From Methanococcus aeolicus Nankai-3 (GTDB taxonomy: Archaea; AGJL01; Methanococci; Methanococcales; Methanococcaceae), in assembly GCF_000017185.1 (NCBI RefSeq), contig NC_009635.1, forward strand, positions 1 to 64,000: DNA of 64,000 nucleotides, given 5' to 3'. Positions within the stretch are counted from its first letter, which is position 1, and every line of letters begins with the position of its first letter. Position numbers and translations under genes: made by a program. Below are positions 29,701 to 61,279 of the stretch, piece by piece. Below the pieces are notes generated by a model, which saw nothing but the letters and a program-made list of their open reading frames with translations, was not told where the DNA came from and did no database searches.

Positions 29701-30714
29701 ATGAAAGATTTAAGACCTATAATATGGGATAATGAAAAAAATCAATTGATATTAATTGACCAGAGAAAACTACCAAATAGTTTGGAATATTTTGTATGTA
29801 AAACCTATGAAGATGTTGCATTTGCAATTAAAGATATGGTTGTTAGGGGAGCTCCTGCAATAGGCGTATCTGCGGCTTATGGAATGGCACTTGCTGAATT
29901 AAATAACAACAATATCGCTTGCGGTAGCAAGCGAGCAACGAAAACCAAAGGTTTTCGTCTAATAGAAAAAGCACACAATGAGTTAAAAAACACAAGACCA
30001 ACAGCCGTAAATTTATTTTGGGCTTTGGATAGATGTATGGAAGCATACAAAAACAATAAATCAATATTAAACGAAGCAAAAGAAATACATAATGAAGACA
30101 TAGAAATATGTAAAAAAATAGGGCAAATAGGGGAAAAAATAATAAATGACGGAGATACAATTTTAACACATTGCAATGCGGGAGCTTTGGCAACTTCGGC
30201 ATATGGAACAGCTTTAAGTGTGATTAGATTTGCCCACTATAACAACAAAAAAATCAGCGTCATAGCAGATGAAACCAGGCCCCGATTACAGGGGGCAAAT
30301 CTAACGGCTTATGAGTTAAATTATGAAAATATACCTGTTAAAGTAATAACTGATAATACCGCAGGATTTTTAATGAAAATGGGAAAAATAGATAAAATAA
30401 TTGTAGGGGCAGATAGAATATTAAAAGATTATACGGTATTTAATAAAATTGGGACATATTCTCTTGCAGTGTTGGCAAAATATCATAATGTGCCTTTTTA
30501 TGTGGGAGCTCCCTACTCTACATTTGATTATGAAAATAGCATTGAAGATATTATAATTGAAGAAAGAGACGAAAAAGAAGTAAAATATATAAACAATATA
30601 AATATTATGCCAGAAGGCGTTTCTGTGTATAATTATGCTTTTGATAGCACACCTGCGGAATTAATTACTGGAATAATCACAGAAAAAGAAATAATTTATC
30701 CAAATAAAAAATAA
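29701..30714 (+). CDS. mtnA: Methylthioribose/deoxyribose-1-phosphate isomerase family protein
   Basis: A 337-residue eIF2B-like aldose-ketose isomerase. Key motifs are VVRGAPAIGVSAAYG (about residue 45; Gly-Ala-Pro encoded by GGAGCTCC), the catalytic Cys in THCNAGALATSAYGTAL (about 157), the Asp/Glu region ETRPRLQGANLTAYEL and VGADRI. In methanogens it is linked to salvage of S-adenosylmethionine by-products. Residues about 72-86 (ACGSKRATKTKGFR) are encoded by two hairpin modules (29915-29934 and 29939-29957) not expected in the family, so this loop looks like an in-frame insertion. A GATATT precedes the ATG; no strong ribosome site. Confidence 0.9.
   Translation: MKDLRPIIWDNEKNQLILIDQRKLPNSLEYFVCKTYEDVAFAIKDMVVRGAPAIGVSAAYGMALAELNNNNIACGSKRATKTKGFRLIEKAHNELKNTRPTAVNLFWALDRCMEAYKNNKSILNEAKEIHNEDIEICKKIGQIGEKIINDGDTILTHCNAGALATSAYGTALSVIRFAHYNNKKISVIADETRPRLQGANLTAYELNYENIPVKVITDNTAGFLMKMGKIDKIIVGADRILKDYTVFNKIGTYSLAVLAKYHNVPFYVGAPYSTFDYENSIEDIIIEERDEKEVKYINNINIMPEGVSVYNYAFDSTPAELITGIITEKEIIYPNKK
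29915..29957 (+). repeat. Two hairpin modules inserted in frame in mtnA
   Basis: Module one (29915-29934) has 8-bp arms TCGCTTGC/GCAAGCGA. Module two (29939-29957) has arms CGAAAACC/GGTTTTCG and matches the module at 42618-42637 at the end of the tnpB element. Both are in the coding strand and preserve the frame. Confidence 0.75.
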
Positions 30715-42584: not shown

Positions 42585-42720
42585 GTGAATTACCCCTCCC
42601 TTACGGACGGGGTTGAACGAAAACCTTTCGGTTTTCGTAGCCCTCGCCCTTCGGGCAAGGTTTCCTGACTCATAGGGGATACTTGCCCAGAGATTACCTT
42701 TATATAAGGTATAACTCTGA
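42585..42720 (-). ncRNA. Candidate omegaRNA (TnpB guide RNA) at the element right end
   Basis: In IS605-family elements the guide RNA overlaps the 3' part of tnpB and runs through the right end into flanking DNA. Here the right end holds three GC-rich hairpins on the minus strand (arms CCTTGCCC/GGGCGAGG, CGAAAACC/GGTTTTCG, and CCCCGTCC...GGGAGGGG), unusual against the AT-rich background. The guide would be flank sequence just below 42585. Prediction from family knowledge; scaffold limits are not defined. Confidence 0.45.
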
Positions 42721-43837
42721 GTAGAGGTCTCCCCTCCGCAGGCACAACGGACTCTCCTAGCCCTGACTTTAATATATTCAAGGATGCGTTGTAATCCCTA
42801 TCAATATTCCAACCGCAGTTTGGACAGAAAAAGATTCTATCAGACAATTTTAAACTACTAACTACACAACCGCAATTGAAACACATTTTTTAGATGTATA
42901 AGCAGGATTTATAAGTATTACTTCTCTATCAGCACCCTCCGCCTTATAGATGAGTAAGTTTATGAATTTTTTCCAAGAACCGTCAAGAATATGACGGTTT
43001 AAGGTCTTCTGACCTTTTTTGTTTTTGACCATTGATTTTATACTTATATCTTCTAAAACTATTTTATCATAGTTATTTATGTAATATCTTGATAATTTAT
43101 GTAGAAAATCATTTTTCTGATTGTTCAATTTATCATAAACCTTGATAAGTTTTAATTTGGTCTTTTTGTAGTTATTAGAACCTTTAGCCTTTTTAGATAG
43201 GTTCTTTTGGACTTTCTTTATTTTATCTAATGTTTTATCTATAAATTTAGGATTTTCAAACTTATTTCCTTCTGAATCTATGGCGTAGGCATTAATTCCT
43301 AAATCAATACCTATAACCTTATTAGTTTTAGGTAATGGTTTAGGTTCTTCATCCACTTGGAAGAATGAAACCACTTACCTGTTGGTTCTTTTTTATAATT
43401 ATTCCTTTAATTTCTCCTTTGATTTTTCTATGTAGTTTTATAGAAATTTTTCCTATTTTAGATAGGTAAAGTTTGCTATCCTTAATCTTAAAACCTGATT
43501 GATTGTATTCTATCGTTTTATAGTGATTTTTAGATGATTTGAATCTTAATCTACCTACTTTATATCCATTCCGTTTTAGTTTTCCTAATGCTTTGAGACT
43601 GCCCCAAAGTTTAGTATTCACAAGTTGAAGGACTTTGGAATGGACTTTTTTAAGTTCAGGATTCTCTTTTTTATGTAGTGTGATTAGTTTTTGGGTGTCT
43701 CCCTTGTTTAGTTTCGGATTTTTGGTTTTTTGTTCCAAAAGATAGTTATAGAGGTATCTACAAATATTTAGATGCTCTTCTATTGTTTCTCTGATTTTCT
43801 TGGAGGGGTAAATCCTGAATTTATAAGTTCTCATCAT
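42585..43837 (-). pseudogene. tnpB: Decayed IS605/IS1341-type tnpB with right end
   Basis: Three overlapping frames together make a TnpB of about 415 residues: 43349-43837 (MRTYKFRIYPSKK start), 42862-43374 (RuvC Asp in GIDLGINAYA and Glu in LEDISIKS) and 42590-42886 (zinc ribbon CFNCG...CPNCG, then DRDYNAS). Frame breaks occur at the T6 run 43389-43394, between about 43360 and 43375, and at the T6 run 42886-42891. Catalytic residues remain. No tnpA is nearby. The transcript would run into the right end, where a TnpB guide RNA (omegaRNA) is normally encoded, ending at the tip 42585. Confidence 0.85.
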
Positions 43838-44143: not shown

Positions 44144-45280
44144 ATGATATATGATTTCTTGAAAGAAAAAAAATTTGGATATACAACAGGTTCTTGTGTT
44201 GTAGCCGGTGCATACTGTGGAATATATTATTTAAAACATAGTGTAAAATTAAATATCGTAGAATTGGAAAATTCAAAAAATGATAAATTAATAATTCCCA
44301 TTGAAGATGTAAAACTGGGTAAAATTGCAACCATCAAAAACATCAATAACACTGGCAAAATAAAGCCAAACAGGGCAACTACAATAGTTAAAAAGTTTTC
44401 AGGAGAAGACATTGACATCACAAATGGCATTGATATTGTAGTGGATGTGGAATTATTAAAAATGGAAAAAGATAAACCAAAAATAGAAATAGTAGGTGGA
44501 AATGGTGTAGGAATAGTTACAAAAGATGGATTACAGATAAAAAAAGGAGAATATGCTATAAATCCAAAACCGCGAGAAATGATTAAAAATAATATTATAA
44601 ATTTGCTTGATGACGATGAAAGGGCAATAATAAAAATAACAATTCCAAAAGGGGAGGAATTAGCTAAAAAAACATTAAATCCAAAATTGGGAATAATTGG
44701 GGGGATTTCCATATTGGGGACTACTGGAATAGTTAGACCCATGTCAAATGAAGCATATAAAGAATCACTTGCACCACAAATTGATGTAGCTCTTGCAAAT
44801 AATTATAAAAAATTAATATTCACACCGGGAAATATTGGCACAAAGTACGCAAAAATAAAATATGGTGTAGATGATGACAATATTGTTGAAGTATCAAATT
44901 TTTGGAGTTTTATGCTCGATAAAGCTGTGGAAAAAGGAGTTAAAGATATATTGATATTTGGACATTCTGGAAAAATTATAAAACTTGCAGGAGGCATATA
45001 TGATACCCATTCAAAAGTTGCAGATGCTAGAAATGAAATATTGACGGCATATAGTTCTCCGTTTATTAATGATAAGCAGATTTTAAAAAATATATTATAC
45101 AGCAATACTACCGAAGAAATAGTTAAAATACTTGAAAAAGAAAATATATTGCATGAGGTATTTAATTTAATTGCTGAGCGAGTAGTTGAGCGAGTAAGTA
45201 GTAGATGGGAAGGTATAAAATTCTCCTGTGTTATAATTGATATGAAAGGTGATATATTGGGAAGCCATATTTATAGTTAA
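44144..45280 (+). CDS. cbiD: Cobalt-precorrin-5B C1-methyltransferase
   Basis: A 378-residue CbiD. The N-terminal KFGYTTGSCVVAGAYCG is the family signature; GNGVGIVTKDGL (about 113), TIPKGEELAKKTLNPKLGI (about 170) and FGHSGKIIKLAGGI (about 270) follow. It adds the C1 methyl group from SAM in anaerobic cobamide synthesis. The last two codons and the TAA stop lie in the terminal inverted repeat of copy A5 (from 45272), so the C-terminus has been set by that insertion. Only a weak GGG precedes the ATG. Confidence 0.93.
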   Translation: MIYDFLKEKKFGYTTGSCVVAGAYCGIYYLKHSVKLNIVELENSKNDKLIIPIEDVKLGKIATIKNINNTGKIKPNRATTIVKKFSGEDIDITNGIDIVVDVELLKMEKDKPKIEIVGGNGVGIVTKDGLQIKKGEYAINPKPREMIKNNIINLLDDDERAIIKITIPKGEELAKKTLNPKLGIIGGISILGTTGIVRPMSNEAYKESLAPQIDVALANNYKKLIFTPGNIGTKYAKIKYGVDDDNIVEVSNFWSFMLDKAVEKGVKDILIFGHSGKIIKLAGGIYDTHSKVADARNEILTAYSSPFINDKQILKNILYSNTTEEIVKILEKENILHEVFNLIAERVVERVSSRWEGIKFSCVIIDMKGDILGSHIYS

Positions 45281-45509
45281 TCTTCAATAACTGTCCCTTA
45301 TACGGCTTATTATTAAACAAAATCCTTCTAGGATTTTGTAAACAAATTTTCATTTATTGGTAATATAGAGATTTTAGCTTTTAATGGGATCTCTAAATTT
45401 TTCTCTGAAAAATTTATACGACCTTAAAAATTCCTCCGGAATTTTGGGTCGTAAAAATCGCTTTGCGATTTTGAGACGGTTTAGTGAAAAAGACCAAAGA
45501 TTGACTATG
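45272..45509. repeat. Family A inverted-repeat element, copy A5, with nested hairpins
   Basis: The left end TATAGTTAATCTTCAATAACTG and right end CCAAAGATTGACTATGG are inverted repeats. The element is a near copy, in reverse orientation, of A7 (58384-58628). Nested modules are AAAATCCTTCTAGGATTTT, AAATTTTTCTCTGAAAAATTT, AAAATTCCTCCGGAATTTT and AAAATCGCTTTGCGATTTT. The third is absent from A7, which has an extra AAAATCTCGAAGAGATTTT instead. Confidence 0.75.
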
Positions 45510-48326: not shown

Positions 48327-48700
48327 ATAAAATACATGAAGATATATTGTTTTTGATATACAATATATCAAATCAAATCTCTTCGAGATTTTAGCCATTA
48401 ATCTTGTAAAATAGCATAATGCACTAAAACAAGCTTTGAAATCTATTAAATAGTATGAATATTTGCGGTTTTTAATAATGCACTAAAACAAGCTTTGAAA
48501 CAAGCTTACCGTAAATAATCCCTCCGAATACAACATATTCCCTAATTTATTTATTTCTATTTATAACCTACAATAAAATAATATATAATATAGAACACTT
48601 TTTTATATGATTTACCCATATAATATTTATATATAATTCTGATGAAAACTTTTTTTTATACAATTTATCTTATACAATTATTAAGTTAATAGGTGGAATT
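48327..48700. other. Intergenic region with two-copy 26-bp repeat
   Basis: The 374-bp gap before carB holds a hairpin module AAATCTCTTCGAGATTT (about 48375-48391), two identical 26-bp repeats (next entry), and AT-rich promoter-like sequence such as AATATTTATATATAATT near 48622-48638. No gene was seen. Confidence 0.5.
48416..48500 (+). repeat. Two identical 26-bp direct repeats separated by 33 bp (CRISPR-like)
   Basis: ATAATGCACTAAAACAAGCT plus TTGAAA occurs at 48416-48441 and 48475-48500, separated by a unique 33-bp sequence. Repeat length, spacer length and the GAAA end are CRISPR-like, but there are only two copies and no cas gene in the window. A degenerate leader-less remnant or an unrelated duplication are both possible. 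Confidence 0.35.
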
Positions 48701-58178: not shown

Positions 58179-58383
58179 TTAATCCCTCAAAATAGTGTTC
58201 TTATTTATTTAATTTATAAAATAGTCATCAGAATAATGTTAAAAATAGGCATAATTTATCTACAATATATGCTTAAATTAATTATAGCTCTTTTATTTCT
58301 TTTACAATATATAACATAATACTCAATATTATTCAATCCTTATCATTTATATACTTTAAGATTTTAGGCGAATCTATATTTAT
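58179..58383. promoter_or_regulatory. psmB upstream region
   Basis: About 200 bp of AT-rich sequence upstream of psmB. On the minus strand, TATAAATGATAAGG and TATATTGTAAAAG-like stretches are TATA candidates, but no single promoter stands out. It merges with repeat copy A7. Confidence 0.35.
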
Positions 58384-58628
58384 CCATAGTCAATCTTTGG
58401 TCTTTTTCAATAAACCGTCTCAAAATCGCAAAGCGATTTTTACGATCGTATAAATTTTTCAGAGAAAAATTTAGAGATGCTATGACGAAAAGCTAAAATC
58501 TCTCCATATTTATCAATAATGAAGAAATTCGTTTACAAAATCTCGAAGAGATTTTATTTACAAAATCCTAAAAGGATTTTGTTTAATAATAAGCCGTATA
58601 AGGGACAGTTATTGAAGATTAACTATAA
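58384..58628. repeat. Family A inverted-repeat element, copy A7, with nested hairpins
   Basis: The ends CCATAGTCAATCTTTGGTC and GTTATTGAAGATTAACTATA are inverted repeats. Nested palindromes are AAAATCGCAAAGCGATTTT, AAATTTTTCAGAGAAAAATTT, AAAATCTCGAAGAGATTTT and AAAATCCTAAAAGGATTTT. It is the reverse-orientation counterpart of A5 (45272-45509), with a different module set. It lies between psmB and hisI. Confidence 0.75.
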
Positions 58629-60355: not shown

Positions 60356-61279
60356 TTATTTAGTATATTTATCAATTAATTCCTTAAATTCTTTTTTAAA
60401 ATTCTCATTTTTTAATAATTTTTCAAATATTTTTTTTCTATCTTTTTGAGATTTTAAATTTATATTATTTTTATTATCAAATCTTTGATTCTTCAAAATG
60501 GCTTTGCCATTTTTACAGTCGTAAAACTTTTCCTCTGGAAAAGTTTGAGATGGTTCAAAAGACGAAGTCTTTTGTGTATCAAATCTTTGATTTGGTTCAA
60601 AAGACGAAGTCTTTTGTGTATCTTTATCCTTTAAAATATCCCTTATTTGTTGCATCATAAAAATATTGTTATCGTTTAAATAATTTTCAACAATTTTCCT
60701 TATTTCTTTTGCGATAAGGGGACTTTTACCTTTTGTATATATTGAAAAATAAACACCATTATTTTCATAACAGGCAGGAATTATGATATTTATATCACTT
60801 TCAAAAGTAGAGGAATTTATTAATTTATTTAGATTTTTTGAAATATTCACAATTCTTTTATTATTTTTTTCATCAATTGCCGTAATAATAATATCATAAT
60901 TTTTTATAATATTTTCTAATTCTTCATTTGATAAATTATTTATGTCTTGTTGTATGAAGTTAATATTTTTAATATCTTTTGTATTATTTAAATTAATGGT
61001 GTCAAATCTTTGATTTCCTGCTCTTTGATTCTTCAAAATGGCTTTGCCATTTTTACAGTCGTAAAACTTTCCCTCTGGAAAAGTTTGAGATGATTCAAAA
61101 GACGAAGTATTTTGTACCCCTATGTGTTTGCATTTATCGTAGATAGTTATTTTTTTAGGAGCTCCTTTTAATATTTTATTAAATCGTCTTTGCCCAACTT
61201 CGCCAAATCCAAAAATACAAACCTTAAAATTATCTAATTTAATGTATAATGGTATAAACGAAGTGTTACCTGTCATCAT
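60356..61279 (-). CDS. Precorrin-2 dehydrogenase/sirohydrochlorin chelatase-like protein with in-frame palindromic insertions
   Basis: A 307-residue CysG(N)/Met8-type protein. The NAD site is FGFGEVGQRRFNKIL (about 21); ITAIDEKNNKR and IIIPACYENNGVYFSIYTKGKSPLIAKEIRK (about 165-195) match the family, which I recall as about 220-230 residues in methanogens. The excess comes from two inserts: residues about 55-92 and 220-266, each with TSSFE...QTFPE-KFYDCKNGKAILKNQR. They are encoded by palindromic repeat DNA at 61001-61116 and 60477-60622. It converts precorrin-2 to sirohydrochlorin, supplying F430 and cobamide synthesis with hemA next door. Confidence 0.88.
   Translation of the reverse strand: MMTGNTSFIPLYIKLDNFKVCIFGFGEVGQRRFNKILKGAPKKITIYDKCKHIGVQNTSSFESSQTFPEGKFYDCKNGKAILKNQRAGNQRFDTINLNNTKDIKNINFIQQDINNLSNEELENIIKNYDIIITAIDEKNNKRIVNISKNLNKLINSSTFESDINIIIPACYENNGVYFSIYTKGKSPLIAKEIRKIVENYLNDNNIFMMQQIRDILKDKDTQKTSSFEPNQRFDTQKTSSFEPSQTFPEEKFYDCKNGKAILKNQRFDNKNNINLKSQKDRKKIFEKLLKNENFKKEFKELIDKYTK
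60477..60622 (-). repeat. Palindromic repeat inserted in frame, copy 1
   Basis: A string of hairpin modules: AAATCTTTGATT, AAAATGGCTTTGCCATTTT, AAAACTTTTCCTCTGGAAAAGTTT and CAAAAGACGAAGTCTTTTG, followed by a duplicate of AAATCTTTGATTTGGTTC plus the last module. The part 60483-60574 matches 61023-61114 with about three differences. Confidence 0.85.
61001..61116 (-). repeat. Palindromic repeat inserted in frame, copy 2
   Basis: Second copy, displaced by exactly 540 bp (180 codons), so both copies are read in the same frame and give nearly the same peptide. It has the same module order as copy 1. Confidence 0.85.

Follow-up and report, generated by a model that had tools for sequence, protein, structure and literature searches.

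Short palindromic elements dispersed in the genome, some of them intergenic and others in frame within conserved genes that are unrelated to one another, are known from Rickettsia (the Rickettsia palindromic elements or RPEs; Ogata et al. 2000, 2002) and from Wolbachia, and in both cases the inserts are tolerated by the host protein. RPEs are about 105–150 bp in length and carry terminal inverted repeats (PMC2229807, PMC10969869). For the archaeon Methanocaldococcus jannaschii, palindromic repeats with coding potential in genes are credited to Suyama, Lathe and Bork (2005, FEBS Lett 579:5281) by PMC2229807 and PMC2996958, and a passage of PMC2996958 names coding elements integrated in genes of Rickettsia, Wolbachia and M. 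jannaschii. A preliminary description of the DNA studied here, from Methanococcus aeolicus, had compared it with the RPEs and taken the archaeal host to be new; the comparison holds, as the M. aeolicus elements are dispersed, mostly intergenic and in frame in several unrelated conserved genes, whereas the claim of novelty gives way to the 2005 report as it is cited. Unlike the RPEs, the M. aeolicus core is a 60–64-bp double hairpin strung with further hairpins, and its gene copies are a small minority. The likeness is one of description, and common descent with the RPEs would be unlikely given the phylogenetic distance. The M. jannaschii elements, in the terms used by the citing papers, share with those of M. 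aeolicus the archaeal order and the position of palindromic repeats inside genes. When 400 kb of genome G028 (1,664,970 bp, presumed M. jannaschii) were searched with R1, the covariance model of the M. aeolicus unit (see below), nothing matched at E=1 or better. The phenomenon is already known from Rickettsia, Wolbachia and M. jannaschii, and the M. aeolicus unit may be a separate and independent sequence family, as judged from R1 against this partial sample of G028.

Mitochondrial elements of Allomyces have a double-hairpin architecture. The M. aeolicus element is like those of Allomyces and sponges (PMC2800124) in being a hairpin mobile unit that is mostly intergenic, occasionally lies in protein genes and encodes no transposase, but the latter are mitochondrial and the likeness is one of architecture. 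The coding palindromes of Nematomorpha mitochondria (PMC6649704) are also perfect inverted repeats inside protein genes, apparently actively maintained; there, however, the host coding sequence itself forms palindromes of up to 284 bp, whereas in M. aeolicus the palindromes belong to an inserted dispersed repeat. The evidence presented below argues that two inserts in a met8-like gene belong to a non-autonomous family of multi-hairpin palindromic repeats, copies of which entered the gene at two loop positions, a reading to which we assign a probability of about 0.87.

Two inserts in a met8-like gene

The features of the window, i.e. the whole 64-kb stretch of DNA that was analysed, are collected in Table 1 together with related hairpins of sister species. 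The product of the host gene is predicted to be an NAD-binding protein of Met8/SirC type. The ORF matches Pfam PF13241 (E=2.9e-10) and, weakly, the precorrin-2 dehydrogenase of PDB 3dfz. Of 41 genomes searched at the protein level, 37 had matches to this protein, and M. aeolicus (G000) had one full-length copy; the matches of the relatives span only query residues ~7–50, 100–220 and 272–307.

Table 1. Coordinates of the host gene, the inserts and related hairpins (positions of the window unless a locus is named)
Feature	Position	Strand	Remarks
Host gene, Met8/SirC-like (precorrin-2 dehydrogenase-like) protein	60356..61279	(-)	307 aa, directly upstream of hemA
Insert 1	61002..61132	(-)	~residues 50-89, peptide CKHIGVQNTSSFESSQTFPEGKFYDCKNGKAILKNQRAGNQRFD; 40-column gap in all seven named orthologues
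Insert 2	60461..60625	(-)	~residues 219-273, peptide DTQKTSSFEPNQRFDTQKTSSFEPSQTFPEEKFYDCKNGKAILKNQRFDNKNNIN; 55-column gap in orthologues
Double-hairpin unit, copy in insert 2	60488..60551	(+)	AAAATGGC..GCCATTTT, linker TACAGTCGTA, AAACTTTTCC..GGAAAAGTTT, then TTTGAGAT
Double-hairpin unit, copy in insert 1	61028..61091	(+)	R1 73.6 bits (training-set member)
Hairpin module C, CAAAAGACGAAGTCTTTTG	60556..60574	.	reads QKTSSF on gene strand
42-bp tandem unit, 14 codons	60581..60622	.	hairpin D CAAATCTTTGATTTG + second module C; family D2
Second hairpin module C in insert 2	60598..60616	.	module match
Hairpin module C in insert 1	61096..61114	.	one mismatch, CAAAAGACGAAGTATTTTG
Intergenic double-hairpin unit within larger repeat	58415..58478	(+)	R1 65.5 bits
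Second window copy of larger intergenic repeat, overlapping double-hairpin units	45389..45477	(-)	R1 57.6 and 51.1 bits
Two hairpins in frame in mtnA (29701-30714)	29915..29958	(+)	peptide NNIACGSKRATKTKGFR; weak case
CRISPR-embedded double hairpins (sister species)	L242, L245, L246, L247 around 1489-1567; also L245 about 2085		

Within the gene, two 107-nt strings (60469-60575 and 61009-61115) with a start-to-start spacing of 540 bp were 92% identical and shared the same codon phase, which bears out the two near-identical strings of the preliminary description, given there as ~92 bp. Both inserts are open in frame and their lengths are multiples of three. They consist of the double-hairpin unit and the modules CAAATCTTTGATT and CAAAAGACGAAGTCTTTTG, the last two in a 42-bp tandem in insert 2, which reaches ~60625 because of this extra tandem unit. 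Their hairpins are AAAATGGC TTT GCCATTTT, AAACTTTTCC TCT GGAAAAGTTT and CAAAAGAC GAA GTCTTTTG. Compared with dinucleotide shuffles, a 146-nt block in insert 2 folded with z = -6.1 as DNA and -5.3 as RNA, and copy 1 alone folded less strongly (z = -1.8).

The preliminary description had proposed an alignment with orthologues and a search of the genome for the repeat. The protein was aligned with 14 orthologues and, separately, with seven named Methanothermococcus sequences. The results showed that both inserts are missing in every aligned orthologue, insert 1 being absent from all of the 14 further sequences as well, and that gaps of ~40 and ~55 columns fall exactly at the repeat DNA, with 49–61% identity across the aligned remainder. 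The M. aeolicus protein thus has 307 aa compared to about 205–225 aa in the orthologues, an excess of about 95–97 residues instead of the ~75 estimated earlier, of which insert 1 adds about 40 and insert 2 about 55. No orthologue bearing the insert peptides without palindromic DNA was found among those aligned, and a DNA search of 11 other species of the genus gave no match to the element. Because the same DNA sits untranslated between genes elsewhere in the genome (99% identical over 102 bp), the met8 inserts are repeat DNA and not enzyme domains.

Insert 1 lies between the beta strand ending in ITIYDK and the following conserved segment, and insert 2 in the C-terminal part between two helices (low-confidence secondary structure). 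AlphaFold models of the protein, run on eight sequences, were poor and unreliable (mean pLDDT 38), and the putative placement of the inserts in loops therefore comes only from the alignment and the low-confidence secondary structure.

Could the inserts have acquired a function in the enzyme, such as docking to HemA or to some other enzyme of the tetrapyrrole pathway, for which selection keeps them? The gene holds two copies that share their orientation and reading frame, and the met8-hemA gene order is conserved (it is retained in the relatives' loci L176, L038, L037, L044 and L053), both of which would suit such a role. However, the inserts are missing from all relatives, the same peptides occur in unrelated proteins, and the untranslated copy at 720401 is equally well preserved. 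Furthermore, in the stretch over which the two met8 copies were compared, every codon difference is nonsynonymous, implying no visible protein-level selection on the insert peptides. Adoption is accordingly very unlikely. Two large insertions in one gene might also mark the loss of a decaying met8-like pseudogene, but the gene is single-copy, its frame is unbroken across 307 codons, the motifs GFGEVG, NNKRIV, NSSTFE and GKSPLIA are retained, and hemA is its neighbour as in the relatives, leaving hardly any room for decay.

A repeat family between genes and in frame

The core double-hairpin unit consists of TCTCAAAA, a hairpin, TTTTACGATCGTAAAA, a second hairpin and TTTGAGA. The covariance model R1 was built from 14 units, and those training copies match it by construction. 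Searching the 1.57-Mb genome with R1 gave 138 two-strand matches at about 80 distinct places; the top match (74.0 bits) was the unit of insert 2, itself a training-set member. Among the places whose context was examined, 56/65 were intergenic and 9/65 in ORFs, two of these ORFs (at 94864 and 1248992, overlapping weak R1 matches) being judged doubtful. Coding sequence makes up about 84% of the sampled DNA, yet the R1 places are mostly intergenic, indicating either that genes are avoided by the element or that selection removes most insertions in genes. The copy at 720401-720502, between a ribosomal-protein-like gene and the next gene, is 99% identical over 102 bp, and a second copy at 760696-760778 is 95% identical; both lie outside ORFs of at least 60 aa.

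Hairpins with a stem of 8 or more were counted in 464 kb of this genome and compared with the expectation from Markov-shuffled sequence. The result showed 107 intergenic hairpins vs about 4 expected and 34 hairpins in coding DNA vs 25 expected, in line with the earlier remark that modules of this style are frequent between genes. Equal 400-kb samples contained 95 intergenic hairpins in M. aeolicus, 42 in G028 and 7 in G011, suggesting that this lineage carries many such hairpins and its nearest sampled relative (G011) few. No copy of the element was found in IMG/VR contigs (exact 20-mer) or in plasmids. No Rfam family matched the elements, and the only Rfam match in the window was a CRISPR repeat (CRISPR-DR65, 48406-48442 on the minus strand, within 48375-48500), with a second partial repeat near 48480 and a hairpin, AAATCTCTTCGAGATTT, just outside the repeats of this interval.

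Two further kinds of repeat were observed in the window. At 45280-45500 and 58380-58620 lie two copies of a larger intergenic repeat, which exceeds 200 bp and has ATCTTCAATAACTGTCCCTTAT and CCAAAGATTGAC at its borders; the arm of its hairpin, AAAATCGCTTTGCGATTTT, is present 34 times as an exact copy across the genome. The octamer GGAGCTCC has 58 sites in the window (e.g. 61158, 60230, 12594 and 24759) vs about 0.08 expected from base composition, and the 400-kb samples hold 338 in M. aeolicus, 63 in the close relative G011 and 6 in G028. It is similar to HIP1, the highly iterated palindrome of cyanobacteria; no paper on such palindromes in methanococci came up in a text search of the literature.

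The unit or its companion hairpins were found in frame in at least seven genes besides the met8-like gene. Insertion was established against orthologues or a solved structure for the met8-like, WecB, TrmG10-like and biotin-ligase-like proteins. In WecB, 26 residues between positions 25 and 52 have no counterpart in the M. jannaschii enzyme of known structure (4neq); the TrmG10-like methylase has exactly 20 extra residues compared to its orthologues, equal to 60 bp or one unit; and the biotin-ligase-like protein has ~20 extra residues, with a 33-bp tandem hairpin repeat just before IKFPND. By sequence match alone, repeat peptides were assigned to a GMC-type oxidoreductase, to a 659-aa membrane protein (two copies) and to the N-termini of a pyridine-nucleotide oxidoreductase and a PIN-domain protein. 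Module C also lies within ORFs at 184793, 428453 and 428900. The 33-bp tandem units (11 codons) of the biotin-ligase-like gene (L171:17762-18571; G000 1057762-1058571) form a second hairpin family, and a similar 33-bp tandem is in frame in the unrelated ORF 359115-359735. The mtnA gene was rejected as a clear insertion, since alignment to 1t9k showed a variable loop roughly 10 aa longer and no clean insertion; its hairpins are probably a short insertion in that loop. Taken together, orthologues in the family and order without the elements, intergenic copies and other genes with in-frame copies uphold the earlier proposal that palindromic elements were inserted in frame.

Five genes carry a full unit, and all of them read the linker as F-Y-x-x-K, on either element strand; the linker TTTTACRRYYGTAAAA is itself palindromic and gives this reading from both strands. 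The FY frame was open in 41/58 intergenic readings vs 49/116 for the other two frames; since it is so often open in intergenic copies too, the use of the FY frame in genes filters only mildly.

The in-frame copies also bear on whether the inserts are present in the mature protein. Archaeal introns are excised at hairpin-like motifs, and the inserts form strong mRNA hairpins (weaker for copy 1), as would be expected if they were removed before or during translation, by way of a bulge-helix-bulge intron or ribosome bypassing, to leave a protein of normal size. Against this, both inserts are open in frame and multiples of three, which introns do not need, the same modules are in frame in several unrelated genes, and near-identical copies lie between genes, making removal very unlikely. 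Translated inserts would be expected to give tryptic peptides such as TSSFEPSQTFPEEK.

Proposed maintenance and mobility of the palindromes

The covariation alignment comprised 14 related copies only, several of them recent. The result showed that 94% of pair cells were standard pairs, that two-sided changes occurred in 10/15 stem pairs, and that the covariation score was unmatched by any shuffle. Strong folding, stem covariation and the position of most units between genes could be taken to mean that the hairpins are retained for regulation at the RNA level, as attenuators or processing sites, and are not selfish DNA. However, the stem changes comprised 34 two-sided Watson-Crick changes vs 2 one-sided, and G-U intermediates, which selection on RNA usually leaves, were almost absent. 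In addition, both orientations occur, and the elements have no Rfam match and were not found in most relatives. An RNA role is thus quite unlikely, and the near absence of G-U intermediates points to maintenance of the palindromes at the DNA level, where one arm would be rewritten from the other. Rewriting might proceed by template switching or quasipalindrome correction, so that the stems would stay palindromic while their sequence drifts.

For the preferred reading, a repeat family with copies inserted in genes, the following course may be proposed. A multi-hairpin repeat family would have expanded in this methanogen, spreading by copying, and the element would readily fold as single-stranded DNA. 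A landing in a gene would survive only where the number of inserted bases is divisible by three, the read strand is free of stops and the site is a solvent-exposed loop; the insert would then be translated as a flexible loop, with the Rossmann core and the C-terminal domain staying intact.

No transposase or target-site duplication attributable to the element was found. The genome has a single match to a Y1 transposase (IS200/IS605 TnpA), broken into two pieces that differ in frame, and for a reading of the element as a MITE of IS200/IS605 type there are only this split match and hairpins of related style at the 3′ end of two tnpB genes. The IS605-type tnpB of the window (42590-43837) is split over three ORFs, and the other copy lies at G000 317881-319464; the hairpin ACGAAAACC..GGTTTTCGT at the 3′ end of both resembles the mtnA hairpin at 29938-29958. 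In the sister species G007 and G008, a related double hairpin, CTCAAAATTCCTTCGGAATTTTTACGATTTACTCGCTTCGCTCGTAAAT, is embedded in single CRISPR repeats. It is flanked there by GTTTCCATCCCACAAT and GGTCTGATTTTAAC, takes one and the same internal position in several arrays, and is often found in the terminal repeat beside an A/T-rich flank.

A bolder and more tentative possibility is that the elements are single-strand hairpin DNAs with recent mobility and a preference for sites that are flexible or prone to hairpins, and that their palindromes are kept even in genes by rewriting of the arms at the DNA level; the related double hairpin of the sister species has one fixed position within CRISPR repeats. 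If this were true, the elements would supply new protein loops whose evolution follows a rule of DNA structure and not protein selection.

For annotators, the finding is a warning that ~95 residues of the met8-like enzyme are repeat DNA. Protein-coding palindromes have so far been discussed mainly for Rickettsia and Wolbachia, and M. aeolicus is here a second methanogen. Near-identical copies in one genome, some predicted to be translated and others untranslated, together with relatives free of the inserts, allow the origin of the insertions, their cost to the enzyme and the upkeep of the palindromes to be tested.
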